Origin: Labilithrix sp.
Lineage (GTDB): Bacteria; Myxococcota_A; Polyangia; Polyangiales; Polyangiaceae
Direction of reading: 5' to 3'
Assembly (NCBI GenBank): GCA_019637155.1
Contig: JAHBWE010000004.1
Location: 1-64,000, forward strand
Length of the DNA: 64,000 nt
Shown: piece after piece, positions 11,516 through 47,689 of the stretch
How positions within the stretch are numbered: the stretch's first letter is position 1
How the letters are laid out: each line of letters starts with the position of its first letter
Position numbers and translations under genes: made by a program
Notes under the pieces: generated by a model
Told to the model about the DNA's origin: nothing
Seen by the model: the letters and a program-made list of their open reading frames with translations, nothing else
Databases searched by the model: none

Positions 11516-11542
11516 GGGAGATCGCAGCATAGTTCAGTCACC

Positions 11543-14177: not shown

Positions 14178-14183
14178 GCCCAG

Positions 14184-15043: not shown

Positions 15044-15055
15044 GGGAGCGCGCGG

Positions 15056-16417: not shown

Positions 16418-16593
16418 GGAGAGCCCTACTTCAAGCGACGCGCCACCTCGTCTCCGCTCGTCTCCGCGGGCGTGATTTCGCGCAACAGCCTTGTTTTCTC
16501 GTGCGCGCGGAGGCTTGTTTTCCAGGCACTTACATCGTCACTGAGCGAACAGGCGCTCACCCGACTGTCGCCCGTCGATGACACGGGCCGCGA

Positions 16594-18258: not shown

Positions 18259-18389
18259 ATGCCGGCGGCGTAGCGCGCGAAGCGGGGACGTGCCACCGCT
18301 TTCGCTCCCGCTGTCGGGTTGCAGCCTGCCTCCCCAAGCGCAGCCGACTGGGTCGGGCGGCGTCGCGGCGTCGAGCGGTGCGCCGGCGT

Positions 18390-19175
18390 TTACGGTGCGA
18401 CGGTCACGGTCGCCCTCGCGAACTCAGGGCCCTGCGGGTCGCACGGCGCTGGAGTGCTGCCGACGACGGTCTCGAACCTGTACGTGTACGTGCCCGCCGA
18501 CACAGGGTTGCGAAACCGTGCGACGGCCCAGCCGGGACATCCGGCGCCGACGGTCGCGCACGCCCGTCGTGATCCTTCCCCGTAGCATTCGCCGTTCCGG
18601 AGGAGGTCGAGCGGCGGGATCGAGCTTGCCCTGCTGATGACGAAGATGTCGAACTCCTCAGACGCCTTCGGTGCTGCCGGGATCGTGAAGATGTGTCTCC
18701 CATCGGGATAGGTTCCGCCGTCGGGCGTCTTGCAGAGGTCGGCGCCACTGCATGCGCAGCCGTCGTCGATGACGCCGTTGCAGTCGTCGTCGACGCCGTT
18801 GAGGCAGGTCTCGGTCGCTGCTGGCTGCGTCGCTCCCTCACACGCTGTCCAGAATCGTTCGCCGTCCTCTTCGATGCACGTTTGCTTGCCCTGCGTGCAC
18901 GCGCTCGCGTCGTTGACGACGCCATGCGAGCAGAAGGCGAGATCGTTGAGCGTCGTGCACGTGCACCCTGCGTTGTCCAGGAGACCTGCTTCGCATGGTA
19001 CGTGCTTCGGGACGGTCGCTTCCTCGCTTGCGTCGATGGATGAGGCAGGCACGTTGTCGACCGTCGCCGCATCAGCGGGAGCCGCGGTCGGCTCCTCGGT
19101 CTCGTAGTCGCTGCACGCCGCGAAGGCGGTCGCGCCGCCGAGCCCGAGAACGAACAACGCCCGCACCGGCCTCAT
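18390..19175 (-). CDS. MopE-like lipoprotein, copy 2 of a tandem pair
   Basis: 261 residues with a lipoprotein signal (LGGATAFAACS). A Cys-rich region contains CLNGVDDDCNGVIDDGC, the Asp/Asn/Cys motif typical of MopE-type metal-binding proteins. A C-terminal beta-rich domain follows (YPDGRHIFTIPAAP, GTYTYRFETVVGS). It is strongly similar to the gene upstream, and its ATG overlaps that gene's TGA (ATGA), so the two are co-translated. Probably a surface-exposed calcium- or copper-binding lipoprotein; the ligand is not shown. Confidence 0.8.
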   Translation of the reverse strand: MRPVRALFVLGLGGATAFAACSDYETEEPTAAPADAATVDNVPASSIDASEEATVPKHVPCEAGLLDNAGCTCTTLNDLAFCSHGVVNDASACTQGKQTCIEEDGERFWTACEGATQPAATETCLNGVDDDCNGVIDDGCACSGADLCKTPDGGTYPDGRHIFTIPAAPKASEEFDIFVISRASSIPPLDLLRNGECYGEGSRRACATVGAGCPGWAVARFRNPVSAGTYTYRFETVVGSTPAPCDPQGPEFARATVTVAP

Positions 19176-19990
19176 GGAGCGACGGTCACAGTAGCCGTTG
19201 CGAACTCAGAGCCCTGCGGGTCGCATGGTGCTGAAGTGCTGCCGACGACGGTCTCGAACCTGTACGTGTACGTGCCCGCTGGAGCGGGGTCGCGATACCG
19301 TGCGACGGCCCAGCCGGGACACCCGGCGCCGGCGGTCGCGCACGTCCGTCGTTGTCCCTCCCCGAAGCATTCGCCGTTACGGAGGAGGTCGAGCGGTGGG
19401 ATCGAGGCTGCCTTGCTGATGATGAAGATGTCGAAGCCCTCAGACGCCTTTGGCGCCGCCGGGACCGTGAAGACGTGCCTCCCATCGGGATAGGTCCCGC
19501 CGTCGGGCATCTTGCAGAGGTCGATGTCAGCGCATGGACAGCCGTCGTCGGCGATGCCGTTGCAGTCGTCGTCGATGGAGTTGAAACACTCTTCCTTCAT
19601 GGCGGGTCGCTCCGCGTTCGCGCATTGCTCCCACCGGAGACCAGTGTTGGTCTGGACGCACCGCTGCGTCCCCTGCGTGCACGCCGTGGCACCTCCGTCC
19701 GCTTTGGTCAGGCCGTATGAGCACGGCAAGATCATCTGCGTATCCTGGCAGGGACAGTCGTTGGCGTTGAAGGGGCTCGTAAAGCACGCTCCGGGGGGAT
19801 TGCCGTCAGCTCCATCGACGACACCCGTGTCGCCATCGCCCGGTAGCGCGTCCGGGGTGTCTGGTGTGCTCGTCTCGACCGTTCCTCCGCCGTCGGCGGG
19901 CTCGTCGATGTCGAGCGGTTCGCCGCATGCGGCTGCGTAGGTCGCGGCGCCGAGGATGGAAACCACGAAGACCAGGCGGAGCCCCCTCAC
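19172..19990 (-). CDS. MopE-like lipoprotein, copy 1 of a tandem pair
   Basis: 272 residues, paralogous to the gene at 18390. The signal ends in ATYAAAC, the middle has CFNSIDDDCNGIADDGC, and the C-terminal domain (YPDGRHVFTVPAAP, GTYTYRFETVVGS) is nearly the same as the copy's. N-terminal parts differ much more than C-terminal parts, which suggests recent tandem duplication with a free-evolving linker. It is first in the two-gene operon. Confidence 0.8.
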   Translation of the reverse strand: MRGLRLVFVVSILGAATYAAACGEPLDIDEPADGGGTVETSTPDTPDALPGDGDTGVVDGADGNPPGACFTSPFNANDCPCQDTQMILPCSYGLTKADGGATACTQGTQRCVQTNTGLRWEQCANAERPAMKEECFNSIDDDCNGIADDGCPCADIDLCKMPDGGTYPDGRHVFTVPAAPKASEGFDIFIISKAASIPPLDLLRNGECFGEGQRRTCATAGAGCPGWAVARYRDPAPAGTYTYRFETVVGSTSAPCDPQGSEFATATVTVAP

Positions 19991-20003
19991 GGGCGCGATG
20001 ATA

Positions 20004-20040
20004 TCAGGCGACGAGCTCCTCGACGGGGTTCTTCGAGGGC
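20004..20040 (-). repeat. imperfect copy of the 3' end of the metallophosphoesterase gene
   Basis: Read on the minus strand just beyond the gene's stop, this stretch encodes SKNPVEELVA. It mirrors the gene's own last codons, which read PKNPVEKLFDW. The roughly 27 aligned bases differ at only a few positions, suggesting a short tandem duplication of the gene end. Confidence 0.5.
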
Positions 20041-20080
20041 GGCGGCCGCGGTTCCCTGAAGTCGCGGCCGGCGATCCGGC

Positions 20081-22594
20081 CTACCAGTCGAAGAGCTTCT
20101 CGACCGGGTTCTTCGGGTCGTGGGCGCCGATGGCCTCGGCGCGGTTGATTTCGATTTCGCCGACGACGTCGAAGCGGGACTGGCCGATGTTCGCGAAGAA
20201 CTTCGCGCGGTTGATCTGCGGGAGCGTCACGCCGCGCTTGTCGCTCTTCGTCTCGAGGGTCAGGACGGTGAAGCCCATCGACGACTTGCCGCCGGAGTAG
20301 GTCTGGTTCGCGAGGTCCGACGCCGACACGAGACGGAAGAACACGAGCTCGCGCGGGCCCAGCTTGCCCGAGGCCGTGTGGCGGCTCCAGCCGGCGACGG
20401 ACTTGTCGTACTGCTTGCCGAAGCTCTTCACGCTGTCCGCGATCGGGTTCATCGGGACCGCGTGGTTGTCGTAGTCCTCCGACGCGCCGTTCGTCGTCTG
20501 CGCCTGCGAGTAGCCGCGGACCGGGTTCAGCACCTCGAGCGTCGCGAACTTCTGCGTCGACGCCGCGTCGACCGGGAACTTGCCGGGGATCAGCTCGTCG
20601 CCCTCCTGGATGACCTCGAGCGAGTTGTAGTGCGTGTGGCCGAGGAGGACGGTGCGGACCTGCGGGCTCGACGCGAGGCGCTTGAGGAGCTCGACGCCGC
20701 TCGAGAACGGCTCGCCCTTCGCCGGGTCGCACGTGAAGTCGGCGCCGCGCTGATCCCAGTCGCAGTCGAACTCCGCGTCGGGGCGCATCCACTCCTGGAG
20801 GCCGTCGTGCGCGCAGGACTCCGTCTGCTCCGTCGAGAGCGCCCAGTCGGGGAGCGTGCAGACGAGCGGGTTCCAGACCTTGCCGACGAGGTAGTTCACC
20901 GCGCTCTGGAAGACCGAGCGGTACTCGAGCTGCTCGAAGTAGTAGCCGAAGTCCTTGCCCTTGTGGCCGCCGCGCGGGTCGTGGTGCGCGAGGATGATGA
21001 CGTCGCTGTTGTCCTGCTTCGCGCGGAGGAGCTCGCGGTCGAGCCAGTCCATCTGCACGTCGTTCATGCTGCCGCCGTAGTTGACGGTGTACATGCCCCA
21101 GCCGCTGCGGCGGTGCTGGCGAAGCTCGTAGCTGTTGAGCGAGACGTACGCGCTCTTGCCGAACTTGTGCGAGTAGAAGAGCGGGCCGTACGTCTTCTGC
21201 CACTGGTAGAAGCCGTCGTAGAGGATGTAGTTGCGGTCCGCGCGCGGGACCTCCTTCCAGCCCGCGAAGCCCTCCGCCTCCGCCTTCGCGTTGCGCGCGA
21301 AGCCGCCGGTGAAGATGTCGCGGTGCTCGCCGCCGAGCTTGTCGGAGGCGGCCGTCTTCGCGAGGTACGACTCGAAGGCCGACTGGTCGAAGTTGGGCCA
21401 CGGGTTGGGCGCGTTGTCCTTGATGACCTCCTTCAGCGACTCGATGACGAGCGTGTCGACCGCCTTCACCGCGGAGGGGACGTGGCCCGTCGCGACGTAG
21501 CCGTCGTGGTTACCGGTCGTGAGGAAGATCGGGATCGGGAGGTACTTGAGGAGGTCGACGATCGCCTTCGCCTCGTTCTGGTACGTCGTCGCGACGGGGC
21601 GCTGCCGGAGCGTGCCGGGCGAGCCGCCGTTGTGGAGGTCGCCGTTGAACGTGATGAACGAGGCGTTGAGGACGGCGGGGTCGTTCGTCGTGTTGAGGAA
21701 GTAGACGAGCTCGTCGAGCTTGTCCTTCGTCTTGTTGTTGTAGAGGTCGCCGACCGAGACCTGCGTGTCGGTGATGTTGATGACGGAGTGCTCGTCCTCG
21801 GCGTCGTCGAACACGCGGACCGCGTTGTACTGGTACTCGTAGACCGGCTGCGAGCCGACGGTGACGAGCTTGTTGTCCTTGCGGACCTCCATCCGGAGGT
21901 CGTAGAGGCCGGCGGGGACGCGCTGCATCGCGCCCTGCTTGAACACGAAGCGGAGCGTGTGGCGCTTCTTGAGGACGGCGGGCATGTCCGCCGGCTCCGC
22001 GTTCATGAGGACGTCGTTCGGGTAGACGCGGATCGCGTCGGTGCCCGTGCCGCTCGAGATCGCGACCTTCGACTCGGCCTGCTCGCGGCCCGCGCGCTTC
22101 ACGAGGAAGAAGGCGATGCCCGTCTTCGCGTCGTTCGGGAGCGTCACGCGCTTCAGCGAGGAGCCCGCGAGCGCCTCCGCCTCGAGGCCGCCGATCGCGT
22201 CGAGGGCGGCGTCCTCGATCCGGAGCACGCTGACGAATTCCTCGGTAGCGTCTTTTTTGACGTAGAGGTTCGGGTTCCCGAGCGTCGGGTAGATGAGGCG
22301 GTCGATCATGACGTGGCCGCCGATCGCGTACGGCATGATCTGCTCGTTCTGCGACGCGTCCGCGTAGAACACGTTCGGCACGTACGTCTCGCCCTTGTTC
22401 GAGACGACCTCCCAGGGCTTCTCCTCCAGCTTCTTCGCGATCTCGGCGGGGGAGAGCTCGCCGTCCGCCACCTCGTCCGCCGACATCGCCGGGGCCGACG
22501 GGTCCGTCGCGCTCCCGCCGTCACTGCCGTCCGAGCCGCAAGCAACGAGGAGTGCGCTGAGGGCTGCGCAAGCGAGGAGGGAGCGTCCGAGCAT
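20081..22594 (-). CDS. calcineurin-like metallophosphoesterase lipoprotein (TIGR-type large family)
   Basis: 837 residues from the ATG at 22594, which puts the lipobox (ALLVACG) close to the N-terminus; an ATG ten codons upstream is possible. The first 250 residues are beta-rich and unassigned. The phosphoesterase core follows: DTQVSVGD, FNGDLHNGG, LTTGNHDG, LAHHDPRGGH and LLGHTHYN, which give the expected metal-binding Asp, Asn and His series. A Cys-bearing insertion lies between the last two motifs. It probably hydrolyses phosphoesters in the periplasm or at the surface; the substrate is unknown. Confidence 0.85.
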   Translation of the reverse strand: MLGRSLLACAALSALLVACGSDGSDGGSATDPSAPAMSADEVADGELSPAEIAKKLEEKPWEVVSNKGETYVPNVFYADASQNEQIMPYAIGGHVMIDRLIYPTLGNPNLYVKKDATEEFVSVLRIEDAALDAIGGLEAEALAGSSLKRVTLPNDAKTGIAFFLVKRAGREQAESKVAISSGTGTDAIRVYPNDVLMNAEPADMPAVLKKRHTLRFVFKQGAMQRVPAGLYDLRMEVRKDNKLVTVGSQPVYEYQYNAVRVFDDAEDEHSVINITDTQVSVGDLYNNKTKDKLDELVYFLNTTNDPAVLNASFITFNGDLHNGGSPGTLRQRPVATTYQNEAKAIVDLLKYLPIPIFLTTGNHDGYVATGHVPSAVKAVDTLVIESLKEVIKDNAPNPWPNFDQSAFESYLAKTAASDKLGGEHRDIFTGGFARNAKAEAEGFAGWKEVPRADRNYILYDGFYQWQKTYGPLFYSHKFGKSAYVSLNSYELRQHRRSGWGMYTVNYGGSMNDVQMDWLDRELLRAKQDNSDVIILAHHDPRGGHKGKDFGYYFEQLEYRSVFQSAVNYLVGKVWNPLVCTLPDWALSTEQTESCAHDGLQEWMRPDAEFDCDWDQRGADFTCDPAKGEPFSSGVELLKRLASSPQVRTVLLGHTHYNSLEVIQEGDELIPGKFPVDAASTQKFATLEVLNPVRGYSQAQTTNGASEDYDNHAVPMNPIADSVKSFGKQYDKSVAGWSRHTASGKLGPRELVFFRLVSASDLANQTYSGGKSSMGFTVLTLETKSDKRGVTLPQINRAKFFANIGQSRFDVVGEIEINRAEAIGAHDPKNPVEKLFDW

Positions 22595-34147: not shown

Positions 34148-36985
34148 ATGGCTGAAGAGATGGCCAATCGACGGAAATGGTGCACGGTCGAGCTGCCCGG
34201 AGCTCGTGGTGGAGGAGCCCGACGGCCGTACGAACGTATCGAGCTCGCCGTTGGGGCGATGGAGAGGACGACGATCGCCGTCGCGTTCGGCGCGGTCGCG
34301 GGGCGTCTCTCGAGCCAGCCGAGCGTGGACCTCGCCGTGCTCTTCGCCGACGGGCTCGATCTCGTCGAGGTCGTGATCGGCGCAGGGCGTCGAGCATCGA
34401 CGCTCCGCGACGCCGTCGCGCGTGCGAAGGCGCGGCCGGCGCCGCCGCTCGACGAAGCGCCGGGGCTCCGCGTCGGCGTACGTGTCGAGCCCGCTCGTAG
34501 TCCGGACGACGAGGTTCGACCCGAGCTCGTGCTCGACCTCACCGGACCGTCGCCCGCGCTCCTCTTCGATCCGGGGCGCCTCTCCCCCGGCGCGGCTCGC
34601 CGCTTCGGGGAGTCGCTCGTCGCCGCGCTCGATCGGCTCGCGCGGGAGGACGTCCCGCTCGATGAGCTGCCGCTGCTCGACCCCGCAGGCGAACACGCGC
34701 TGCTCGGCGACGCCGGAGGCCCGCGCCTCGAGGTCGCGCACCTGCCCCAGGTGCACGAGAGGATCCTCGCTTGGGCGGAGCTCGAGGGAGGACGCGTCGC
34801 CGTCACGCAGGGCGACCGCGGGCTGACGTTCGCCGAGCTCGCGAGCGCGGCCCGTCGTATCGCCGGGCGCTTGATCTCCGCGGGGATCGAGCCGGGCGCA
34901 CGCGTCGGCGTCTGCGCGGCGCGGACGCCGGAGATGGTGGCGGCGCTGCTCGGCGTGTGGATCGCGGGGTGCGCCTACGTCCCGCTCGATCCTTCGCACC
35001 CGCGAGCGCGGCTCGCGTACGTCCTGAGCGACGCTGGCGCGTCCGTCCTCGTCACCGACGATCCAGCGTCGCTCGACGGCCTCTTCGCCGGCTCGACGAT
35101 CGTGCTGTCCGATGCGCTGACCTCGGAGGACGAGGTCGCTGCAAGGAGAGGCGCGCTGGCGTACGTGATGTACACCTCTGGATCGACCGGACAGCCGAAG
35201 GGCGTGCGGATCCCTCACCGCGCGCTCGTCAACTTCCTCGCGTCGATGATCGATCTCTTCGACCTCGGCGTGACCGATCGCGTCCTCGCCGTCACGACGA
35301 TCTCGTTCGACATCTCGCTCCTCGAGCTGTTCGCGCCGCTGTACGCGGGCGGCAGCATGACCCTCGCGACCTCCGCGGAGGCGATGGACGGGAGCGCGCT
35401 CCGCCGCCTCCTCGAGGTCGAGCCGGTGACGCTGCTCCAGGCGACGCCGACGACGTGGCGCCTGCTCCAGGGCGCGGGCTGGGATGGGACGCGCGGGCTG
35501 CGCGCGCTCTGCGGCGGCGAGCCGTTCCCGAAGGAGCTCGCGCGCGACCTCCTCCCCCGCGCCGCGGAGGTCTGGAACATGTACGGGCCGACGGAGACCA
35601 CCGTCTGGTCGACGGTCCACCGTGTCCGGCCGGAAGACGTCGCGGGAGAGCGCTCGATCCCGATCGGACGCCCGATCGCCAACACGCAAGTGTACGTGCT
35701 CGATCCGAAGCGCCGGCTCGTACCGCGCGGCGCGGTCGGCGAGCTGTACATCGGCGGCGACGGCTTGGCCGACGGCTACCACGAGCGCGTCGCCCTCACG
35801 GCGGGGGCCTTCGTCGAGAGCCCCTTCGTCGAGGACGCGCGCGTCTACCGCACCGGCGATCTCGTCGCGTGGCGCGAAGACGGAACGCTCGAGTGTCTGG
35901 GCCGCGCCGATCAGCAGGTCAAGCTCCGCGGCTATCGTATCGAGCTCGGCGAGATCGAGGCGGCGCTCGAGGCGCACGCCGCCGTCGCGCAGAGCGCGGC
36001 GCTCGTGACGACGCGCTCCGGCGGCGCGCAGGTGCTCGTCGCCTACCTCGTGCTCGCCGATCCCTCCCTCCGCACCGGAGCGCTGCGCGAGCACCTCGCG
36101 GCCCGCCTGCCTCTCTACATGGTGCCGGCGACCTGCTACGTGGTCGACGCGATCCCGCTCGGACCGAGCGGGAAGATCGATCGCAAGGCGCTCACGGCGC
36201 GTGACGCGCCGGCGCTCGGCGACGCCGACGAGCGCGTCGTCCCGCCGCGCACGGAGACGGAGCGATGGATCGCCGCGCGCTGGGCGCTCCTGCTCGGTCG
36301 CGATCGCGTCGGCGCGCACGCCGACTTCTTCGACCTCGGCGGCGACTCGCTCACCGCGATGCGGTTCTTGCTCGCCGTCCGCGACGAGCGCGCGAGCGAG
36401 CTCACGCTGCGCGAGCTGTTCACGCTCCGCACGGTCGACGCCCTCGCGCGCGCGATCGACGCCGGCGCGGCGCGCGCACACGCGCCCGTGCGGATCGAGC
36501 GGACCGACCGTCCCGCGTTGTCCGCGGCGCAGCAACGGCTCGCGCTCCTGGCGCAGCTCGATCCGAACGACACCGCGTACAACCTCGGCTACGACGTCGA
36601 CCTCGAAGGCGAGCTCGATCGAGCGGCGTTTGCGCTCGCGCTCGTCGATCTGACGACGCGCTGCGACGCGCTGCGAACCGGGCTGTCGAGCGACGGACTC
36701 TCGCCGCGGCTCTGGCCCGAAGGCGCGATCACTCCGCCCGCGGTGGAGGACCTCTCCTCGCTGCCCCCGGCGGAGCGCATCGACGCAGCGCGCCGGCGAG
36801 CCCAGTCGCTGCTCCGCCAACCCTTCGCGCTGGGACGGCGAGCCCCCCGCGCGCTGGGCGCTCCTCGCGCTCGGTCCGCGCCTTCACCGGTTGATCTTCG
36901 TCGTTCATCACATCGCCTTCGACGGACCCTCGCTCGCCGTCGCGCTCGGCGACCTCGCCGCGCTCTACCGTCATCGGTGTGGTGA
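34148..36985 (+). CDS. non-ribosomal peptide synthetase, first part (partial C, A-Gly, T, start of C)
   Basis: Residues 1-185 look like the C-terminal half of a condensation domain. An adenylation domain follows (about 200-700; YTSGSTGQPKG near 340, MYGPTETT, GKIDRK) and then a carrier domain with FFDLGGDSL near 726-734. Aligned by eye to GrsA, the pocket code reads DILQLGMVWK, the glycine type. A second condensation domain begins near 790 but the frame runs off course after PFAL at 36830. Its active-site half is in the next frame, so the true gene very probably continues to 41141. An ATG at 34259 is an alternative start. Confidence 0.85.
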   Translation: MAEEMANRRKWCTVELPGARGGGARRPYERIELAVGAMERTTIAVAFGAVAGRLSSQPSVDLAVLFADGLDLVEVVIGAGRRASTLRDAVARAKARPAPPLDEAPGLRVGVRVEPARSPDDEVRPELVLDLTGPSPALLFDPGRLSPGAARRFGESLVAALDRLAREDVPLDELPLLDPAGEHALLGDAGGPRLEVAHLPQVHERILAWAELEGGRVAVTQGDRGLTFAELASAARRIAGRLISAGIEPGARVGVCAARTPEMVAALLGVWIAGCAYVPLDPSHPRARLAYVLSDAGASVLVTDDPASLDGLFAGSTIVLSDALTSEDEVAARRGALAYVMYTSGSTGQPKGVRIPHRALVNFLASMIDLFDLGVTDRVLAVTTISFDISLLELFAPLYAGGSMTLATSAEAMDGSALRRLLEVEPVTLLQATPTTWRLLQGAGWDGTRGLRALCGGEPFPKELARDLLPRAAEVWNMYGPTETTVWSTVHRVRPEDVAGERSIPIGRPIANTQVYVLDPKRRLVPRGAVGELYIGGDGLADGYHERVALTAGAFVESPFVEDARVYRTGDLVAWREDGTLECLGRADQQVKLRGYRIELGEIEAALEAHAAVAQSAALVTTRSGGAQVLVAYLVLADPSLRTGALREHLAARLPLYMVPATCYVVDAIPLGPSGKIDRKALTARDAPALGDADERVVPPRTETERWIAARWALLLGRDRVGAHADFFDLGGDSLTAMRFLLAVRDERASELTLRELFTLRTVDALARAIDAGAARAHAPVRIERTDRPALSAAQQRLALLAQLDPNDTAYNLGYDVDLEGELDRAAFALALVDLTTRCDALRTGLSSDGLSPRLWPEGAITPPAVEDLSSLPPAERIDAARRRAQSLLRQPFALGRRAPRALGAPRARSAPSPVDLRRSSHRLRRTLARRRARRPRRALPSSVW
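36832..36834 (+). other. apparent +1 frameshift site in the NRPS gene
   Basis: Up to GCG-CTG the reading frame is that of the first part. If one G of the GGG at 36832-36834 is skipped, reading continues as DGEPPARWALLALG and then HHIAFDG, the condensation-domain active site. One extra base therefore explains the split. Confidence 0.75.
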
Positions 36986-39900
36986 CGGGCCGCTCCCTCC
37001 GGTGGTGCCGTGCCGCTTCGTCGACGCCGCCGCCTTCGAAGCCGCTTCGGCGAAGGCGAGCGCGGAGGCGCACCTCGCGGCGTGGGTCTCGAGGCTCGAA
37101 GACGCCGTCCCGCTCGAGCTACCGGCGGACCGACCGCGAACGCGCGCGCGATCGACGCGCGGCGGCTCCGTCGCGATCGAGCTCGACGCGGACCTCACCG
37201 CGCAGGTGCGCGGCGTCGCGCGGCGGCTCGGGACGACCGGCTTCATGGTCTTGCTCGCGGCGTTCGATCTGCTGCTCGCGCGCTCGTGCGGACAAGACGA
37301 CATCGTCGTCGGCACGCCGGTGTCGCTGCGCGCGCACCCCGACACGCTCGGCGTCGTCGGGTTCTTCGTGAACACCGTGCCGGTGCGTGTATCGCTCGGA
37401 GGCGCCGCCGACTTCGCCGCCCTCGTCGCGGCGGTCCAGACCGCCGTGCTCGACGCGTTCGCCCTCCGCGACGTTCCGATCGACGCGATCGCGGCCGCGC
37501 TGAGGACGGGAGACGCCGGCGCGCCGCCGTTCCGCGCGGCGTTCGCGCTCGGCGCCGACGCGTCGGAGGCGTGGACCGTGCCCGCGGTCCGCGCGCGCGT
37601 CCACGAGCATCCGTCGACCGGGGCGCGCGTCGAGCTCGGGCTCCTCCTCACCGAAGGTCGCGAGCGCGTCCACGGCTACCTCGAATACGACGCGGACCTC
37701 TTCGACGCCATCCGGATCGAGGCGATGGCGCGGCACTTCGTGGTCCTCCTGCGCGCAGCGCTCGCTGATCCGCGGGCCGATCTCTGGCGCCTCGACATGC
37801 GGACTCCGGAGGAGCGCGCGGCGCTCGACAGATGGAACGACACACGGCGCGCCGCGCTCGACGATCGACCCGCGCACGCGTTCTTCGAGGACCACGCCCG
37901 TTCGCGTCCTTCGGCGATCGCCCTCCGCTTCCGCGGGGCGAGCCTCCTCTACGGCGAGCTCGACGCGTGGGCGGAGCGCGTCGCCGCCGCGCTCCGCGCC
38001 GCCGGAGTCGGCCGCGGCCAGCGCGTCGGGCTCGCGATCGAGCGCGGGTTCGGGCTCGTCGCAGGGATCCTCGGCGCCTGGAAGGCGGGAGCGGCGTACG
38101 TCCCGCTCGATCCGGGATATCCGCCGGGACGGCTCCGGCTGTTCCTCGAGGACAGCGGGCTCCGACACGTCCTCGTCGAAGGTACGCTGCCCGCCGCGCT
38201 CGACGGCGCCGCGGCGCTCGAGACGGTGGACGTCGCCGCGGCGCGGAGCGCGGCGGACGTCGCGCCCCCCGCCGGTGAGCCGCCGGGTCCCGACGATCTC
38301 GCCTACGTCATCTACACCTCGGGCTCGACGGGTCGTCCAAAGGGCGTGGAGCTGGCCCACCGCGGCCTCTGCAACCTGATCGCGTCGCTGCGCGAGCTCT
38401 TCCGCGTGGGGGCCGCCGATCGCGTGCTCCAGTTCGCGTCCACCAACTTCGACGCGTCCGTCTGGGAGATCGCGATGGCGCTCATGGCCGCGGGAGGGAC
38501 GCTCGTCCTCGTGCCGCGGGAGAGCGTCGCGGATCCAGCCGCGCTGACGTCCCTCCTCGTCTCCGAGCGCGTCACGATCGCGACGCTCCCGCCGGTGATG
38601 CTCCACGAGCTCGATCCGGCCGCGTGTCCGGTGAAGACGATCATCTCCGCCGGCGAGGCCTGCACGATCGAGCTCGTGCGGCGCTGGGCGCCGGGTCGCC
38701 GCTTCGTCAACGCCTACGGGCCCACCGAGACGACCGTCTGCGCGACGCTGGAGATCGTCCGCGACGGGCTCGAGAGACCACCGCCGATCGGGCGGCCCCT
38801 CCCCAACATGCGCGCCTACGTCCTCGGCCGCGGTGACGTCGCTTCTCCGCCCGGGATCGTCGGCGAGCTGTGCATCGGGAGCGAGGTCGCGCTCGCGCGC
38901 GGCTACCTCGGCCAACCCGAGCTCACCGCCGCGCGGTTCGTCGACGATCCGTTCGTGGACGGCGCGCGGATGTACCGGACGGGAGACCTCGCGGCGTGGT
39001 CGCGCGGCGGCTCGCTCGAGTACGTCGGCCGGAGCGATCGTCAGGTCAAGCTCCGCGGGCACCGCATCGAGCTCGACGAGATCGAGCACGCGCTGGCGAG
39101 CCGGCCCGGCGCGCTGCGGAGCGCCGTCGTCGTCGCGCGCCGCCCGCCGAGGGACGAGGTCCTCCTCGGGTTCGTCGAGCCGGACGCGCGCGGGTTCGAC
39201 GCCGACGTCGCGCTCGCCGCGATGCGCGAGTCGCTCCTCGCCTATATGGTGCCGGCGCGCCTCGTGGTCGTCGACGCGATGCCGATCACGCCCAACGGCA
39301 AGATCGATCGCAAGGCGCTGGAGCGGTGGTCCCTCGAGGACGCGCCGATCGACGCGGCGGCCGCCGCCGCGCCCGCCGTCGATCCGCTTGAAGCGAGCGT
39401 CGCGCGGCTCTTCGCCGACGCCCTCGGTCTGCCGGCGTTCGGTCTCGACGACTCGTTCTTCGAGCACGGCGGGCACTCGCTCATGGCCGCGCGCCTCGGC
39501 GTCCGTCTCCACGAGGCCACCGGCGTGGCGGTGCCGCTCGCGAAGGTCTTCGAGCGGCCGACGGTCCGCGCGGTCGCCGCGTGCATCCGGGCGATCCGCG
39601 CGGGCGAGGTCTCCGGGCCGGAGGCGATCGATCTCTCCGCCGACGTGCACCTCGACCCGGCGATCATGCCTGCAGGCGACGCGACCTCGGAAGCGGCGTG
39701 GCGCGCGGTGCTCGTCACCGGCGCGACCGGCTTCCTCGGTGCGCACCTCGTCGAGCGCCTGCTGTCGGCGACGTCCGCCCTTGTGTGCTGCCTCGTCCGC
39801 GCCGCCCACGCCGGCGAGGCGCTCGCGCGCGTGCGGGACAACCTCGCGCGCTACGGCCTGTGGAGGCCCGAGCACGCCACGCGAGTCCACGTCGTCTGCG

Positions 39901-41141
39901 GCGATCTCGCCGCGCCGCGCCTCGGCCTCGACGACGCGACCTACGCCGAGCTCGCGGAGGAGATCGACGCCGTCCTGCACAACGGCGCCTACGTGAACCA
40001 CGTCCGCCCGTACGCCGCGCTCCGTCCGGTCAACGTGCTCGGCACCGTCGAGGCGCTGCGCTTCGCGTGCACCGGGCGCCCGAAGGCGTTCCACTACGTC
40101 TCGACGGTCGACGCCGTGACGCCGTCGGCGATCGAGGACGGCGTCGCGCAGGAGGCGCGCGGCGGCGCCGACGGTGACGTCCTCGCCACCGGCTACGCGC
40201 AGAGCAAATGGGTCGCGGAGGGCCTCGTCGAGCTCGCCGCCGAGCGCGGCCTGCGCGCCTCCATCTCGCGCCCCGCGGCCGTCTGCGGGCGCGCCGACGG
40301 CGGGCGCTGGAACGTCGGCGACTTCTTCACGCGGTTGCTCGAGACGTGCCTCGAGCTCGGCGCGGTCCCCGACTGGCGGCTCGAGATCAACGTCCTCGGC
40401 GTGGACGAGGTCGCGGCGTGGATCGTCGACATCTTCCGCGCGGCCCGGCCGGGGCGGGCGCGGCTCCATCACGTCACGCACCCCGACTCGCTCACGAGCG
40501 GCGACGTCACCGCCGCGATGATCGCGCGCGGCCACGCCGTCCGGCTCGTCCCGTTCGCGGAGTGGCGCGCGTCGCTGTTCGAGAGGGCGAGCCGGGGAGA
40601 GGATCATCCGCTCGTTCCCATGCTGAGCCTCTTCGACGAGCGGCGAGACTGGGACGTCTCCGTACGCTTCGCGAACGTCGAGGCGCGCAAGACGGCGCCG
40701 CGCGAGCGGTTCGCGAGCCCGCGCGAGTCGGTGACGGCGTTCTTGCGGCGACACGGCCCTGCGCCCGAGCTCGGGCTCTCCGAGCGCGTCGCTCCCTACT
40801 TCGAGGCGCTGCTCGCCGAGCCCGCGGAGGAGCCGGCGGCGCTGCGGCGCAAGCTCGCCGACTGGGTCGAGCCCGTCACGCGAGCCGCCGCGCGGTACCC
40901 TCGGCTGAACGTCTCGCTCGCGTGGCGCCTCCAGCGCGCGTCGCTCGATCTCCTCGACGCGGTCGAAGAGAGCACGCTCGGACCGGAGCGGCGCTGGGTC
41001 CAGGCGTCGATCGAGTACCTCGTCCGCGAAGGGGACGCGGTCCACGACTTCGAGCAGGCGGACGGGCTCCTCGACGATCTCGAGGTCCACAACGCCGTCG
41101 CCGCCGCCGTCGGCCGCGAAGAGCTCTGCGTCCGCCTGTAG
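36891..41141 (+). CDS. non-ribosomal peptide synthetase, second part (rest of C, A-Phe, T, terminal reductase)
   Basis: 1416 residues. Condensation continues from HHIAFDG at the N-terminus to about 330. Adenylation spans about 335-830 (YTSGSTGRPKG near 472, NAYGPTETT). The pocket code DAWTIAAVCK matches phenylalanine (GrsA type). The carrier domain has GGHSL with Ser863. From about 938 a short-chain-dehydrogenase-type thioester reductase begins (VLVTGATGFLGAHL, Tyr and Lys in GYAQSKW near 1101), which would release the peptide as an aldehyde or alcohol using NAD(P)H. With the first part the order is A-T-C-A-T-R, as in the aureusimine/phevalin synthetases. The first residues of the true frame lie upstream of 36891. 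Confidence 0.88.
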   Translation: MIFVVHHIAFDGPSLAVALGDLAALYRHRCGDGPLPPVVPCRFVDAAAFEAASAKASAEAHLAAWVSRLEDAVPLELPADRPRTRARSTRGGSVAIELDADLTAQVRGVARRLGTTGFMVLLAAFDLLLARSCGQDDIVVGTPVSLRAHPDTLGVVGFFVNTVPVRVSLGGAADFAALVAAVQTAVLDAFALRDVPIDAIAAALRTGDAGAPPFRAAFALGADASEAWTVPAVRARVHEHPSTGARVELGLLLTEGRERVHGYLEYDADLFDAIRIEAMARHFVVLLRAALADPRADLWRLDMRTPEERAALDRWNDTRRAALDDRPAHAFFEDHARSRPSAIALRFRGASLLYGELDAWAERVAAALRAAGVGRGQRVGLAIERGFGLVAGILGAWKAGAAYVPLDPGYPPGRLRLFLEDSGLRHVLVEGTLPAALDGAAALETVDVAAARSAADVAPPAGEPPGPDDLAYVIYTSGSTGRPKGVELAHRGLCNLIASLRELFRVGAADRVLQFASTNFDASVWEIAMALMAAGGTLVLVPRESVADPAALTSLLVSERVTIATLPPVMLHELDPAACPVKTIISAGEACTIELVRRWAPGRRFVNAYGPTETTVCATLEIVRDGLERPPPIGRPLPNMRAYVLGRGDVASPPGIVGELCIGSEVALARGYLGQPELTAARFVDDPFVDGARMYRTGDLAAWSRGGSLEYVGRSDRQVKLRGHRIELDEIEHALASRPGALRSAVVVARRPPRDEVLLGFVEPDARGFDADVALAAMRESLLAYMVPARLVVVDAMPITPNGKIDRKALERWSLEDAPIDAAAAAAPAVDPLEASVARLFADALGLPAFGLDDSFFEHGGHSLMAARLGVRLHEATGVAVPLAKVFERPTVRAVAACIRAIRAGEVSGPEAIDLSADVHLDPAIMPAGDATSEAAWRAVLVTGATGFLGAHLVERLLSATSALVCCLVRAAHAGEALARVRDNLARYGLWRPEHATRVHVVCGDLAAPRLGLDDATYAELAEEIDAVLHNGAYVNHVRPYAALRPVNVLGTVEALRFACTGRPKAFHYVSTVDAVTPSAIEDGVAQEARGGADGDVLATGYAQSKWVAEGLVELAAERGLRASISRPAAVCGRADGGRWNVGDFFTRLLETCLELGAVPDWRLEINVLGVDEVAAWIVDIFRAARPGRARLHHVTHPDSLTSGDVTAAMIARGHAVRLVPFAEWRASLFERASRGEDHPLVPMLSLFDERRDWDVSVRFANVEARKTAPRERFASPRESVTAFLRRHGPAPELGLSERVAPYFEALLAEPAEEPAALRRKLADWVEPVTRAAARYPRLNVSLAWRLQRASLDLLDAVEESTLGPERRWVQASIEYLVREGDAVHDFEQADGLLDDLEVHNAVAAAVGREELCVRL

Positions 41142-41189
41142 CTGTCCGAGATGGTCACGACCTCGACCGAGCTGCCGGCGCCGGGGTGA

Positions 41190-41648
41190 TCACGACGTCC
41201 AGATCGCGCCCCGGCGGGCGGCGCACCGCGAGGCCAACCGGTGTCGCTCTGTCGGCCACGCTTGCGCGAACTGCCAGGTGTCGGGGTCGTCGTCGATCGA
41301 CGGATCGAAGCTGATCGCCGGCGGGCGCGGCGCTCGCAACGTAAACGCGAACGCATCGAGGGGGAGCGCGAGGCCGAGGCCGCGAGCCTTGATATACGCC
41401 TCTTTCAGCGTCCAGTAGTCGAAGAACACGCGCGCGCGTTCGGCCTCGTCCCGGCGCCGGAGATCCGCCACCTCTCGCGCGGCGAAGAACCGGTGCGCGA
41501 CACCGTGCGTGCGCTGCGGCTCCACCCGCTCCACGTCGACGCCGACGTCCAGTGTGCGGGTGAACGCGCACGCGATGACGTCATCGCTGTGCGAGACGTT
41601 GAAGCCGATCCGCACCGGCACGAACGACGCCAGCTCCGGGCGGGCCAT
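41190..41648 (-). CDS. Sfp-type 4'-phosphopantetheinyl transferase, C-terminal two thirds
   Basis: 152 residues with the family signatures FNVSHSDDVIACAF, VGVDVERV (metal-binding Asp and Glu) and WTLKEAYIKARGLGL. It transfers phosphopantetheine from CoA to the carrier-domain serine of NRPSs. The N-terminal third lies in another frame at 41641-41886. The ATG at 41648 is probably only a chance start after a frameshift. It converges on the NRPS with a 48-base gap; its natural partners are the two T domains next door. Confidence 0.8.
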   Translation of the reverse strand: MARPELASFVPVRIGFNVSHSDDVIACAFTRTLDVGVDVERVEPQRTHGVAHRFFAAREVADLRRRDEAERARVFFDYWTLKEAYIKARGLGLALPLDAFAFTLRAPRPPAISFDPSIDDDPDTWQFAQAWPTERHRLASRCAARRGAIWTS

Positions 41649-41886
41649 GGGCGTTCGTCACGAGCCGCCACGCGCGCGGATCGCCGCCGAGGAAACGCGA
41701 GAGCTGGAGGCGGACGAGCGCGCGACCGATGACGAACCGCTCCTTGTCGGCGTCGAGGTGGAGACGGACCTCTCGCGCCAGCTCGTCCTCGCTCAGCAGT
41801 CGCCGGTAGCGCGAGAGCTGGGAGCGCACCTCCGGATCGTCTCGCCGAGCGGTGAGCACGTGCACGACGCGCTCGAGGTGGGACAT
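41641..41886 (-). pseudogene. Sfp-type phosphopantetheinyl transferase, N-terminal fragment in the other frame
   Basis: The start at 41886 reads MSHLERVVHVLTARR, then a helical stretch with LLSEDELAREVRLHL, RFVIGRALVRLQLSRFLG and WRLVTNAHG, the expected N-terminal domain of Sfp enzymes. After NAHG the frame goes astray. Dropping one G from the plus-strand run GGGCGGGCC (41638-41646) would join NAHG to RPELASFVPVRIGFNVSHS. Either an authentic mutation or a homopolymer error. Confidence 0.7.
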
Positions 41887-41893
41887 CGCCCGC

Positions 41894-43033
41894 TCAGCCT
41901 TTGAGCTTGTACGTCGTGGTCAGCGACGCGATCGCTTCCTTCGCGCGCTTCTGGATCTCCTTGTTCGGATGGTTCTCGTACTTGCGCATCAGCTTCAACG
42001 TCTTCTCGTCGCGTCGCTGGTAGTAGATGTTGAAGAGGGCAGCGCTGCGCGTGGCGTCGTCGGCCCCGGCGTCATTGACCACCTTCTCGAGGAACGTGTA
42101 GACGCCCTCGCACTGCGCGTCGTCCGCCGCCCGCTTCGTCACGCCGGCGACGAGCTGGGCGCACGGCTCGCGCAGGACCATCGCGAAGGGGTTCTTGTAT
42201 TCCTTCTTCGCGAGGCGCGTCTCCGCCTCCGCGAGGAGGGCGTCGATGTGCTTGCCCTTGCAGAAGACCATCGCCTCGGCGGCCTTCGCCGCGACGCCGA
42301 GGTCGGCGCTCTTCAGATAGCCCTCGGCCCACGGGCACGCGGCCGACCTCTCCTCGTCGGTCGCGTTCGACATCCTCGGGACGGCGTCGAGCGCGGCGGA
42401 GGCGTGCGCCGGTGTCTTCTCGGCGACCTCCTTGAGCTTGGGGAGCCCCTTCGTGCGGCCGAACACGAGGAGGTGCCGGTAGACGTTGTCGCGCGCCTCC
42501 TTCGTGGGATGAGCGTCGGCGACGGCGTAGAGCGGATCGAACATCGCCGCGATGGTGGCGAGCTGCGCGATGGGGCCCGCCATGCGCGTCGCGCGGTTTC
42601 CGGACTCGTCCTTCAATGCCGCGAGCGCGGACGTGACCGCCTCCTTCGTCGCGTTCTTGCGTTTCCCTTCGTCGCCGAGGTTGTCGAACTGCTCGGCCAG
42701 GAGCGCCACCGCGACCGCCGAGGTCTTCGCGTCGTCCTTTTTCCGGACGAGCGCGATCATCGTCGACGCGAACGCCGCCGGCTTGCTCTCGCGTACGTGC
42801 TTCGACAGCGCGTCGACGACGCCGTCCTTGCACGAGAAGGCCTGGCCCTGCTCGACGTTCACGGTGCACTTGTCGACGTGCGCCTTCACGTGACCGGCGA
42901 GCGTGGCGTCGACCGCGGACTCGGCGGTGCTCGCCGACTCGGCGGCGGGCGGAGCGCCGTTGTCGCCGGCGCCGGCCTTCGAGCAAGCCGCGAGCGCGAC
43001 GAAGAGAACGAGGAGCGAGCGCGTCGTCTTCAT
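41894..43033 (-). CDS. helical-repeat lipoprotein of unknown function
   Basis: 379 residues with a clear lipobox (VLFVALAACS, Cys17), a short Ala/Ser-rich linker and then an almost wholly helical body with HEAT/ARM-like spacing (for example TSAVAVALLAEQF, AAKAAEAMVFC, RSAALFNIYYQ). A few scattered Cys (KCTVN, FSCKD, AACPW) may form disulfides. It starts 7 bases upstream of the transferase fragment on the same strand; no functional link is evident. Confidence 0.7.
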   Translation of the reverse strand: MKTTRSLLVLFVALAACSKAGAGDNGAPPAAESASTAESAVDATLAGHVKAHVDKCTVNVEQGQAFSCKDGVVDALSKHVRESKPAAFASTMIALVRKKDDAKTSAVAVALLAEQFDNLGDEGKRKNATKEAVTSALAALKDESGNRATRMAGPIAQLATIAAMFDPLYAVADAHPTKEARDNVYRHLLVFGRTKGLPKLKEVAEKTPAHASAALDAVPRMSNATDEERSAACPWAEGYLKSADLGVAAKAAEAMVFCKGKHIDALLAEAETRLAKKEYKNPFAMVLREPCAQLVAGVTKRAADDAQCEGVYTFLEKVVNDAGADDATRSAALFNIYYQRRDEKTLKLMRKYENHPNKEIQKRAKEAIASLTTTYKLKG

Positions 43034-43080
43034 GGCGTCTGACGTTCATCGATCTCGAGGCGCTCCGCCTGCTCCGTCCG

Positions 43081-43106
43081 CGCTCATTCGTTGCTCGATC
43101 CGCTCG
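43081..43106 (-). repeat. dispersed intergenic repeat, copy 3 (diverged)
   Basis: Read on the minus strand, this segment matches copy 5 at 47756 over 26 bases with three differences (core CGGATCGAGC instead of CAGATCGAGC). It lies between the divergent helical lipoprotein and HTTM genes. Confidence 0.6.
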
Positions 43107-43157
43107 CTCGGCCGGCGCTCCGCTCGTGGGCTGGTGTATCTCGACGTCGAAGAATGG

Positions 43158-44576
43158 GTGGACGTGAACCGCCAGGTGATACGCGCGGTCGCTACCCTCG
43201 ATCTGCGCTCGCTGGCGGCGATGCGCATCGGGATCGGCGCCCTCATGCTCGCGGACGTGCTCGAGCGGTCGAGCCGCCTCACGCTCGACTACACCGACGA
43301 GGGGCTCCTCCCGCGGTCGTGGCTCATCGAGGCCGGCCGCGACGCGCCGCTCCTGTTCGTGCACGGCGTCGACGGCGGCGCGCCGTTCGCGGCGGCGTGC
43401 ATGATCGCGTCCGCGGTCGTGGCGGCGCTCCTCCTCGCCGGCTGGCGCACGCGGATGATGTCGCTCCTCGCGTGGATCCTCTGGAGCTCGCTCCAGGCGC
43501 GCAACCCGATGATCGCGCACCACGGCGACACGATCCTTCGGTTCATCTTGTTCTGGGGCGCGCTCTTGCCGTGGGGCGCGCGCTGGTCGCTCGACGCGCG
43601 ACGACGCCCGCCGGCGCCCGACGCGTTCGTCGGCCCCGCCGCGGTGGGCTACCTGCTCCAGCTCGTCTTCGTCTACGCCTTCAGCGTCGCGTACAAGACA
43701 GGGCCGGCGTGGCGCGAGGACTTCGACGCGGTGGCGCTGGCTCTGCGCGTGCACGGCTACGCGACGCCGCTCGGCGAAGCGCTCCTCGGCTATCCGCGCG
43801 CGATCGTGGCGCTCACGATCTCCGTCCTCGCGCTGGAGGCGCTCGGCGCGTTCCTGGTCCTGTCGCCGTGGCGGACGGAGGCGGCGCGGCTCGTCGCGGC
43901 GGCGGCGTTCATCACGTTCCACGTCGGCCTCGGGCTCACGATGCGGCTCGGGCTCTTCGTGCCGCTCGCGATCGTCGCGTGGATCGGCGTCTTGCCCGCG
44001 CGCGTCTGGCGGCGAGGCCCGCCGACCATCGGCGAGAGCGTCGGCGGTCGCGCGGCGACGTGGATCACGGCGGCGGCGACGGCCTTCGCGCTCCTCGTCA
44101 ACGTCGACGCCCTCGCGTCGTTCCGCGCGCGCACCGACGTCGCGTCGCCCTTGCCGGCGCTGCCGGTGGTGGCGAAGATCGCCGCGCGCATGGGGCTCTC
44201 GCAGGAGTGGTCGATGTTCGCGCCCGAGCCGGCGTCGCTCAGCGGACGACTGCGCGCGACGATGACCCGCGCCGACGGGGAGACCGTGGACGTCCTGCGC
44301 GGCGAGGTCGTGGAGCCGAACGGTCCGTTACCGGACGGGCCGCGCGCGCCGCTTCGCGTTCGCCAGCAGGAGCTGCGCTGGGCGTACTGGATGTATCCCG
44401 AGGCCGTAGAGCGCTATGCGCGATACGCCTGCGCGAACGGCGTGTTCGGCGAGCCGCCCCCACCGCCGGGTCTGCTCACCGTCCGCGCCGGCCTCGCGTC
44501 GACGCGCGAGGTCGACCGGACGACGCCGCCGGAGTGGATCGAGCTCGTGTCGGTGCCGTGCGATCCCGCTCGTTGA
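43158..44576 (+). CDS. HTTM-domain membrane protein (gamma-carboxylase-like)
   Basis: About 472 residues from the GTG at 43158; a GTG at 43134 is also possible, while the frame further upstream is only open by chance. The N-terminal segment LRSLAAMRIGIGALMLADVL and YTDEGLLPRSWL, followed by at least eight hydrophobic helices and RNPMIAHHGDTILRFILFWG, identify the HTTM family. Its best-known member is vitamin K-dependent gamma-carboxylase. The C-terminal part after residue 330 is soluble (SQEWSMFAPEP is typical). The reaction in bacteria is not established. Confidence 0.8.
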   Translation: MDVNRQVIRAVATLDLRSLAAMRIGIGALMLADVLERSSRLTLDYTDEGLLPRSWLIEAGRDAPLLFVHGVDGGAPFAAACMIASAVVAALLLAGWRTRMMSLLAWILWSSLQARNPMIAHHGDTILRFILFWGALLPWGARWSLDARRRPPAPDAFVGPAAVGYLLQLVFVYAFSVAYKTGPAWREDFDAVALALRVHGYATPLGEALLGYPRAIVALTISVLALEALGAFLVLSPWRTEAARLVAAAAFITFHVGLGLTMRLGLFVPLAIVAWIGVLPARVWRRGPPTIGESVGGRAATWITAAATAFALLVNVDALASFRARTDVASPLPALPVVAKIAARMGLSQEWSMFAPEPASLSGRLRATMTRADGETVDVLRGEVVEPNGPLPDGPRAPLRVRQQELRWAYWMYPEAVERYARYACANGVFGEPPPPPGLLTVRAGLASTREVDRTTPPEWIELVSVPCDPAR

Positions 44577-45643: not shown

Positions 45644-47689
45644 TCAGCCGAGCTCCCCCGTCCGCTCCCTCGCCGCCGTTTCGATCGCGTCGATCTCGCG
45701 CGCCGCGTGCTCGACGGCGGCGACGAGGTGCCGACGGTACGTGCTGTACCCCATGCCGAGCGCCTTCGCGATCGCGAGCTGCTTGTCGCTCGCTCCACGC
45801 AAGAAGGTCGCGGTCAGGATCGCGGCGTCGTGCGGCGTCACGTGTCCTGCCGCCGTCGCGCCGCGACACACGTCGGAGAGCAGGTTCGCGAGCGCGCGCG
45901 CCGGCGGCTCTCCGTCGACGCATCGCTCTCGAACGGCAGCGCACGTCGCGAGCGCGCTGGTTTGGAGGGCCTCGCCGTGGATCCGCGGCAGCGCTCGCTT
46001 CACCTCGTCGCGCAACGCCGCGCCGAGGGCGACCCTCACCTCTGCCGGGCGAGACGCGCCGCGCACACGCGCGATCAACGTGCGGAGCTTCTTCTCGAGC
46101 GTGTGGCGCCGCCAGTCGATACCGACGATCGCCCAGGAGCGCCCGCTCAGATCGATCCGGCCGTAGACGTCGAGCCAGAGATCGGGTCGCGCGACGATCG
46201 CGTCGAAGTCGGCGTGGACGGCCATCGAAGCGACCACCGGTCGCCGGGGCCAGCAGAGCTCGACGAAGTTGAGGTCGTGGATCGCGTGGAGGGCGGGCGA
46301 CGGCGCTTGGTGGGAGACGGTCGACCCGAAGAAACGTGACACGACGGCGCGCGCGCTCGGGTCGAGCGCCCCGCCGCTCCGGTGGAGTCGCTCGAGCCAG
46401 CACGCGATGGTCGGATCGTCGACCGGCTGCGCAACCGCCGGGACGAGGTCGAGGAAGACCGCGTAGCCGACGAGGCGCTCCTCGTCGTCACGGACGACGT
46501 GGCCGAACGTCACGCCGGCGGCGCGCCAGGCTGACGCGAGCCGTCCGTGGACTTCGCCCTCGACGCGCGCGACCGCCGCGAGGACCTCGGGCCAGTCCGC
46601 GTCCGTCGCGACGCGATGATGAAGGCGCGGGCTCGAGGCGACGCCGGCGAGGATGTGAAGGCGCTCCGCGCTGAGGAGGCGCTGGAACGGGACGAGGAGA
46701 GAGAGCACCTCCGCGTACGTCGCGTGCGTGAGGCGTGCGACGAGCGCGTCCTCGAGTCGATGCCGGAGGACCCTCTCGTGATGCGGATCGAGGAACAGGT
46801 CCTCCCGCGACGCTGCTTCGATCACGAGCGGATGGAAGCGAAGGCCGACCGGCGTCGCCGTCGTGAACGGCTGCGCCTCGAGCCATCGCACCACGCGGCG
46901 CGCCGCGGCCGCGTCGATGTCGAGGGTGTCGGCGAGGAGCGATTCGGTCACCGGTACCGCCATGAGGCCCGCCCGCATGGCGTCGAGGTGAGCCCCGGTC
47001 GGGCAGCGATCGAGCAGCGCCGTGAGCGCCGCGCGCAGCGGCGCGGCGCCGGGCGACGGTTCGCCGGTGGAGCTCGACGTCCCATGCGTCTCTTCGTGCG
47101 CGACGAGCCAGAGCGTCAGCGGGTGCCCGCCGGCGAGCGCGACGACGCCCGCGATCCGTCGCTCACTCACGCCGAGGGAGCAGGCGAGCACGCGGGCGTC
47201 CTCGTCGCCGAGGGGGCCGATGGCGATCTCCTCCGCGATCGCGCTCCACGCGGGGTCCGTCCTCCATCGGGCGGGAATCGGCGCGCGGCTCGCGACGATG
47301 ACCGCGACGCGCGCGTCCAGCGAAGGCAGCAGCCGCTCGCGGAACCAGTTCCAGACGGGCTCGAGGTTCTCGAACCCGTCCACGACGAGGACGCCGGACG
47401 GCGCCACCCCGCGCGCCGTCAGGGCGAGCGCGTCGACGCCGAGCGAAGCGTCCTCGCCGTCGATCTGGACGACGCGTCGGCCTCGGGCCTCGAGGTCCCG
47501 AACGACGCGCGCGAGCAGCGTCGACTTGCCGATGCCCCCCGGACCGACGAGCCAGAAGACGCGCCGCTCGGAGGCCTCTCCGGCGTTCGACAGGAGGCGG
47601 AGCTCACGCTCACGTCCGACGAACGTTCGCGCGCGGACCTCGTTCATCGTGTCTCCGAGCCCGCGGACCAGCTCCCCCATACCGTGCAT
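45644..47689 (-). CDS. STAND-type ATPase with C-terminal HTH
   Basis: 681 residues. FVGRERELRLL precedes an NTPase domain with Walker A GPGGIGKS at 49-56, Walker B VLVVDGFENL with Asp104, and ASRAPIPARWR as sensor region. A long helical region follows, then a GNAT-like middle, and the C-terminus has DKQLAIAKALGMGYSTYRRHL, resembling the recognition part of a sigma-region-4/LuxR-type HTH. This is the plan of MalT-like regulators, which couple ATP binding and an inducer to transcription. ATGs at 47680 and 47647 are alternative starts. A truncated paralogue lies at 48461. Confidence 0.8.
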   Translation of the reverse strand: MHGMGELVRGLGDTMNEVRARTFVGRERELRLLSNAGEASERRVFWLVGPGGIGKSTLLARVVRDLEARGRRVVQIDGEDASLGVDALALTARGVAPSGVLVVDGFENLEPVWNWFRERLLPSLDARVAVIVASRAPIPARWRTDPAWSAIAEEIAIGPLGDEDARVLACSLGVSERRIAGVVALAGGHPLTLWLVAHEETHGTSSSTGEPSPGAAPLRAALTALLDRCPTGAHLDAMRAGLMAVPVTESLLADTLDIDAAAARRVVRWLEAQPFTTATPVGLRFHPLVIEAASREDLFLDPHHERVLRHRLEDALVARLTHATYAEVLSLLVPFQRLLSAERLHILAGVASSPRLHHRVATDADWPEVLAAVARVEGEVHGRLASAWRAAGVTFGHVVRDDEERLVGYAVFLDLVPAVAQPVDDPTIACWLERLHRSGGALDPSARAVVSRFFGSTVSHQAPSPALHAIHDLNFVELCWPRRPVVASMAVHADFDAIVARPDLWLDVYGRIDLSGRSWAIVGIDWRRHTLEKKLRTLIARVRGASRPAEVRVALGAALRDEVKRALPRIHGEALQTSALATCAAVRERCVDGEPPARALANLLSDVCRGATAAGHVTPHDAAILTATFLRGASDKQLAIAKALGMGYSTYRRHLVAAVEHAAREIDAIETAARERTGELG

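Follow-up and report, generated by a model that had tools for sequence, protein, structure and literature searches.

The window, by which we mean the whole stretch of 64,000 nucleotides that was analysed, carries a nonribosomal peptide synthetase (NRPS) at 34148–41141. Pfam, NCBIfam, alignments and a fold comparison give the order half condensation (C) domain, adenylation domain A1 (predicted Gly), carrier domain T1, C domain, adenylation domain A2 (predicted Phe), carrier domain T2 and reductase (R). The NRPS is spread over two open frames, 34148–36985 and 36891–41141. In the first frame, Pfam finds AMP-binding, AMP-binding_C, PP-binding and positions 1–113 of Condensation. The second frame continues with Condensation positions 122–455, followed by AMP-binding, AMP-binding_C, PP-binding and NAD_binding_4. 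This domain match to an NRPS, with a C domain that is continuous save for one frame change, far exceeds chance. The order A-T-C-A-T-R lies in a single open frame in a second copy on contig C25 of the same genome, an assembly of 10.1 Mb in 46 contigs, and is split in the window copy. A third homologue, L016, is found in the Sandaracinaceae MAG ACE_MYX11 (JAHBWG010000110.1).

Domains of the synthetase

The N-terminal fragment (34223..34699, + strand, residues 26–184) is assigned as the C-terminal lobe of a C domain, without the lobe that carries HHxxxDG. AF2 modelled the first 204 residues with low confidence (mean pLDDT 48.6). The best Foldseek matches of this model are C domains, and in VIA-align, where Z reaches 9.4, residues 26–184 superpose on their C-terminal lobe. 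All of the best 50 VIA-align entries are C domains or C-containing NRPSs. Thus, the modelled fragment is consistent with a C-domain fold restricted to the C-terminal lobe. Pfam gave no match to it at E 1, and hmmsearch against 39 C domains gave a weak match to the last 75 positions only. Likewise, hhalign against the family's own C domains and pairwise alignment against shuffles left the question undecided. Hence, it was the fold comparison that decided the assignment.

The fragment is common to the window copy, C25 and L016, and the HHxxxDG motif is absent from all three N-termini. It is the least conserved part of the protein, with 81% identity to C25 and 34% to L016, compared with 57–65% to L016 for the C domain and the tail. 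The original prediction had allowed for an acyl cap or a relic at this position. In other NRPSs, initiating C domains are capable of acylation, and the retention of the fragment in three homologues would fit a domain that takes an acyl or other donor and caps glycine. However, the catalytic HHxxxDG lobe is missing in all three members and the conservation of the remaining lobe is low, so we regard acylation here as very improbable. That all three homologues retain it at low conservation is more easily reconciled with a structural remnant than with an acylating domain, and the relic reading is preferred. As such a relic, the half C domain would be what domain loss has left behind, a platform packed against A1. 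The fragment itself was correctly predicted, and the search for a complete N-terminal C domain found only the C-terminal lobe. Its supposed difference from AusA, however, does not hold, because position 412 of the NCBIfam AusA model aligns with window residue 199, which leaves about 410 residues before A1 in that model.

A1 (34772..36175, + strand) was identified by Pfam. Its pocket reads D-I-L-Q-L-G-M-V-W by alignment with the structures of the nearest solved domains, AB3403 (4zxh) and a DhbF module-1 fragment (5u89). We take both AB3403 and DhbF module 1 to be Gly-activating domains. DILQLGMIWK, which is nearly identical to the A1 code, is a published Gly code (PMC12283262). A2 (37884..39302, + strand), also identified by Pfam, has GrsA and TycA as its nearest solved domains. 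Aligned to GrsA (1AMU), its pocket reads D-A-W-T-I-A-A-V-C, and a DAWTIAAV pocket has been tied to the Phe found in aeruginosins (PMC10744761). The pocket codes of the original prediction, DILQLGMVWK and DAWTIAAVCK, were thus re-derived by structure alignment, with the C-terminal lysine of both ten-letter codes assumed. The DILQLG-type pocket in A1 and the DAWTIAA-type pocket in A2 support a Gly-like A1 by comparison with AB3403 and DhbF and a Phe-like A2 by comparison with GrsA, and the use of these substrates is predicted from the aligned codes.

The two carrier domains, T1 (36263..36457, + strand, GGDSL) and T2 (39399..39587, + strand, GGHSL), were both found as Pfam PP-binding. Between T1 and A2 lies the C domain (36515..37826, + strand) with the motif HHIAFDG, recognised by Pfam and by comparison with C25. 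Near 36.83 kb, a frame change of one base separates its halves at 36515–36832 and 36834–37826. Two carrier domains and one complete C domain after joining of the frameshift, as had been proposed, are borne out by Pfam.

The thioester reductase domain (39714..40646, + strand) is supported by Pfam NAD_binding_4, NCBIfam Thioester-redct, the alignment with MxaA (4u7w) and a motif check. The motifs GATGFLG, YVSTV and YAQSK are present in the reductases of the window copy, C25 and L016 (3/3). Both the NADPH motif and the S/T-Y-K residues are in place, and a loss of Ser-Tyr-Lys, which would have spoken against the prediction, was found in none of the three. The reductase had been expected to be terminal. 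It is present but is not the last element, as a conserved tail comes after it.

The tail (40785..41138, + strand) is a domain of about 118 residues that is 65% identical to its L016 counterpart. Its AF2 model is a helical bundle with a pLDDT of 87.5. Pfam DUF1232 (PF06803) gave no match at E 10. By eye, however, the tail shares the DUF1232 spacing Y-x5-D-x3-D-x5-G-x2-DD-x2-V. A self-made profile links the two weakly (E 0.001–0.006 at Z 1000), as does hhalign (E 6e-4, probability 29%). Foldseek found no match to the tail fold at E 0.001, and VIA-align returned unspecific helical bundles only, with a best Z of 8.3. Searched against other genomes of the order, the tail profile finds mostly small proteins of roughly 120–140 residues (L086, L087, L088, L089, L090, L092 and others). 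Three of these small relatives were scanned; one lies above the Pfam DUF1232 cut-off and two have no family above cut-off. Our guess is that the tail serves enzyme placement or interaction. A survey from 2010 listed no other domain flanking such reductases (PMC2835699), and the domain after the reductase departs from that survey.

Neighbouring genes, the C25 copy and the frame changes

Downstream of the NRPS lies a gene for an Sfp-type phosphopantetheinyl transferase (41155..41886, − strand), which has two frameshifts relative to the open C25 copy. It is followed by a lipoprotein-like gene (41894..43033, − strand), which is linked to the NRPS and intact on C25 too. An HTTM-like membrane protein gene (42903..44576, + strand), with an HTTM match below the Pfam cut-off, also occurs in the C25 cluster. 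The fourth neighbour (45644..47689, − strand) encodes a STAND-type ATPase and possible regulator; all its Pfam matches are below cut-off, and its C-terminus looks HTH-like by eye. A phosphopantetheinyl transferase gene stands beside the NRPS at both loci, as in ausA/ausB, and further transferase-family genes are found on contigs C8 and C14.

On C25, the NRPS homologue lies at about 14236–21219 in an open frame of 2441 codons. It is 88.6% identical to the window NRPS in DNA over the whole gene and 89% identical in protein over the second half. The C25 cluster (12.2–25.4 kb; L027, L028) contains the gene set of the window in a different order. On C25, the transferase and lipoprotein genes are upstream and divergent, and the STAND gene is directly downstream of the NRPS. 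Identities between the two loci are 87.6% for the transferase and lipoprotein genes, 74.3% for the STAND ATPase and 73.6% for the HTTM-like gene. C25 could be a mis-binned contig of a close relative. However, its composition matches that of the other contigs, and one 8-kb stretch of C25, the single stretch covered, has no near-duplicate elsewhere in the genome. Hence, we read C25 as a paralogous cluster and not as a second strain, and on the same grounds contamination was judged unlikely.

Compared with C25, the window NRPS has one uncompensated single-base frame change; its other frame-disturbing gaps are compensated within a few bases. The transferase gene has two uncompensated frame changes, and its N-terminal part is in a different frame from the catalytic part, whereas the C25 counterpart is open. 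Programmed frameshifting was considered for the NRPS and dropped, as in C25 and L016 a single frame runs through the homologous site.

The dN/dS values between the copies are 0.29 and 0.21 for two pieces. With L016 as outgroup, 27+36 (63) amino-acid changes fall on the window branch and 18+37 (55) on the C25 branch. Both copies are evolving under constraint, with balanced changes on the two branches. As constraint is not relaxed on the window copy, any decay there is recent, or else the changes are errors. The second of these readings, that the copy is intact in the organism and that the frame changes of the NRPS and transferase genes come from assembly or sequencing, also fits the lack of in-frame stops beyond the frame changes. 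Against it stand three uncompensated single-base changes in two adjacent pathway genes, next to open lipoprotein and STAND genes, and a coarse coding-frame scan that covered about 256 kb from C25, C1 and C10 without a clear case; two junctions there were read as mis-segmentation. We hold such errors to be a real possibility, at somewhat under even odds. Within the window, the coarse scan gave one further good candidate besides the NRPS and transferase genes. This is a Fic/DOC gene (14403–15043, + strand) with an apparent frameshift near 14.74 kb, where the coding signal leaves the frame of the Fic domain and continues in another. Because the frame changes cluster in two pathway genes, decay is favoured, though only slightly. 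Hence, the window copy has probably either become a pseudogene recently or been misassembled locally; loss of function is what we infer from the computed duplication and frame changes. The C25 copy, with its open transferase gene, is likely the working one.

Release and product

Dipeptide aldehydes and pyrazinones are the products of dimodular synthetases that end in a reductase, and in several bacteria these compounds serve as signals or protease inhibitors. For the enzyme described here, the mechanism would start with phosphopantetheinylation. A1 would then load T1 with glycine and A2 would load T2 with L-phenylalanine. The one complete C domain would join them as Gly-Phe-S-T2, from which the reductase would release the product with NADPH. 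The A-domain codes and the reductase motifs support the dimodular Gly-Phe synthetase with reductive release that had been predicted.

Our first choice for the product is the route from the dipeptide aldehyde through the imine and its oxidation to 6-benzyl-pyrazin-2(1H)-one (C11H10N2O, calculated [M+H]+ 187.087). The route from reductase to pyrazinone is described in the literature (PMC12153313; PMC8210680; PMC10979478). A second choice is the linear amino alcohol glycyl-phenylalaninol (C11H16N2O2, calculated [M+H]+ 209.129), which would arise by full, four-electron reduction. It becomes a rival because the reductase is far nearer to MxaA (4u7w, 222 bits), the nearest solved reductase, than to the AusA reductase (62 bits). 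Among the NCBIfam models, MxcG matches the second half best (608 bits against a cut-off of 2300), and both the myxalamid and the myxochelin reductases were reported as four-electron and alcohol-forming in the 2010 survey (PMC2835699). However, how many reduction steps take place cannot be read from overall similarity, and since MxaA and the window NRPS are both myxobacterial, their likeness may reflect lineage. A free N-terminal glycine would also favour fast cyclisation of the aldehyde. For this last reason the pyrazinone is kept first, with the alcohol close behind; we consider the alcohol possible, at roughly one chance among three.

Of the predicted product, Gly-Phe and reductive release are thus supported, and the MxaA-like reductase makes the alcohol a close rival of the aldehyde. 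A pyrazinone is plausible. If the Gly-Phe version is true, the product would be a benzyl-pyrazinone unsubstituted at C3 or, with further reduction, glycyl-phenylalaninol. To our knowledge, neither compound is known as a myxobacterial product.

Known systems and the family

AusA/PznA, which makes aureusimine in Staphylococcus with the transferase AusB, resembles the window NRPS in its two modules, terminal thioester reductase and adjoining transferase gene. An aromatic residue in the second module and, according to the NCBIfam model, C-domain-sized material before A1 are further likenesses. In contrast, module 1 uses Val in AusA and is predicted to use Gly here. The window enzyme also has an N-terminal C domain cut to about half, a distant reductase and an extra C-terminal tail. 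The two halves score 373.7 and 565.2 bits and miss the NCBIfam AusA equivalog cut-off of 2500 bits. The myxobacterial MxaA/MxcG lines (myxalamid, myxochelin) provide the nearest solved reductase and the best NCBIfam match of the second half. They make polyene or catecholate products, whereas the window NRPS would use two amino acids only, and the MxcG cut-off is missed.

The canonical order of pyrazinone synthetases is C-A-T-C-A-T-R (PMC10979478). CorA from Corallococcus builds the pyrazinone core of coralinone and is likewise a dimodular myxobacterial NRPS contained in one protein, but KS-AT-ACP-TE takes the place of a terminal reductase, and its amino acids are Leu/Ile/Val (PMC10979478).

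In a scan of 84,980 species, which detects close relatives only, L016 was the sole close relative (62%) apart from the C25 paralogue. A search that took in 184 genomes from the order and 379 sampled across the phylum, two sets that overlap, otherwise yielded only reductases at 40–42%. L016 shares about 62% identity, the domain order, the half C domain and the tail with the window NRPS. What follows it differs. In place of the transferase, STAND and HTTM genes, the L016 NRPS is followed directly by a GST/FAD_binding_4 oxidoreductase (10312–12432) and then by an NRPS that starts with a formyltransferase (13549–16272). The oxidoreductase could oxidise the ring or the alcohol. By tblastn, the N-terminus plus A1 of the window NRPS weakly matches the formyltransferase-NRPS region (34%).

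The window gene is a rare yet recognisable variant of a known enzyme type. We give a probability of about three in four to the whole account, in which it is a frameshifted duplicate of a dimodular Gly-Phe reductive-release NRPS and C25 is the likely working copy. A broader proposal is more tentative, and we would not yet bet on it: a rare Polyangiales-type myxobacterial family of Gly-Phe reductive-release enzymes that begin with a conserved half C domain and carry, after the reductase, a DUF1232-like helical tail acting in release or placement, with the pathway duplicated in this genome, its neighbours rearranged and one copy decaying.

Dimodular NRPSs with reductive release are known already. 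Beyond the original prediction, the analysis adds the tail, the frameshifted transferase gene, the duplicated cluster and the intact C25 copy, and it is with this copy and not the window copy that chemists should work. The half C domain is a natural setting in which to ask if an initiating A domain can be supported by a C-terminal lobe on its own.
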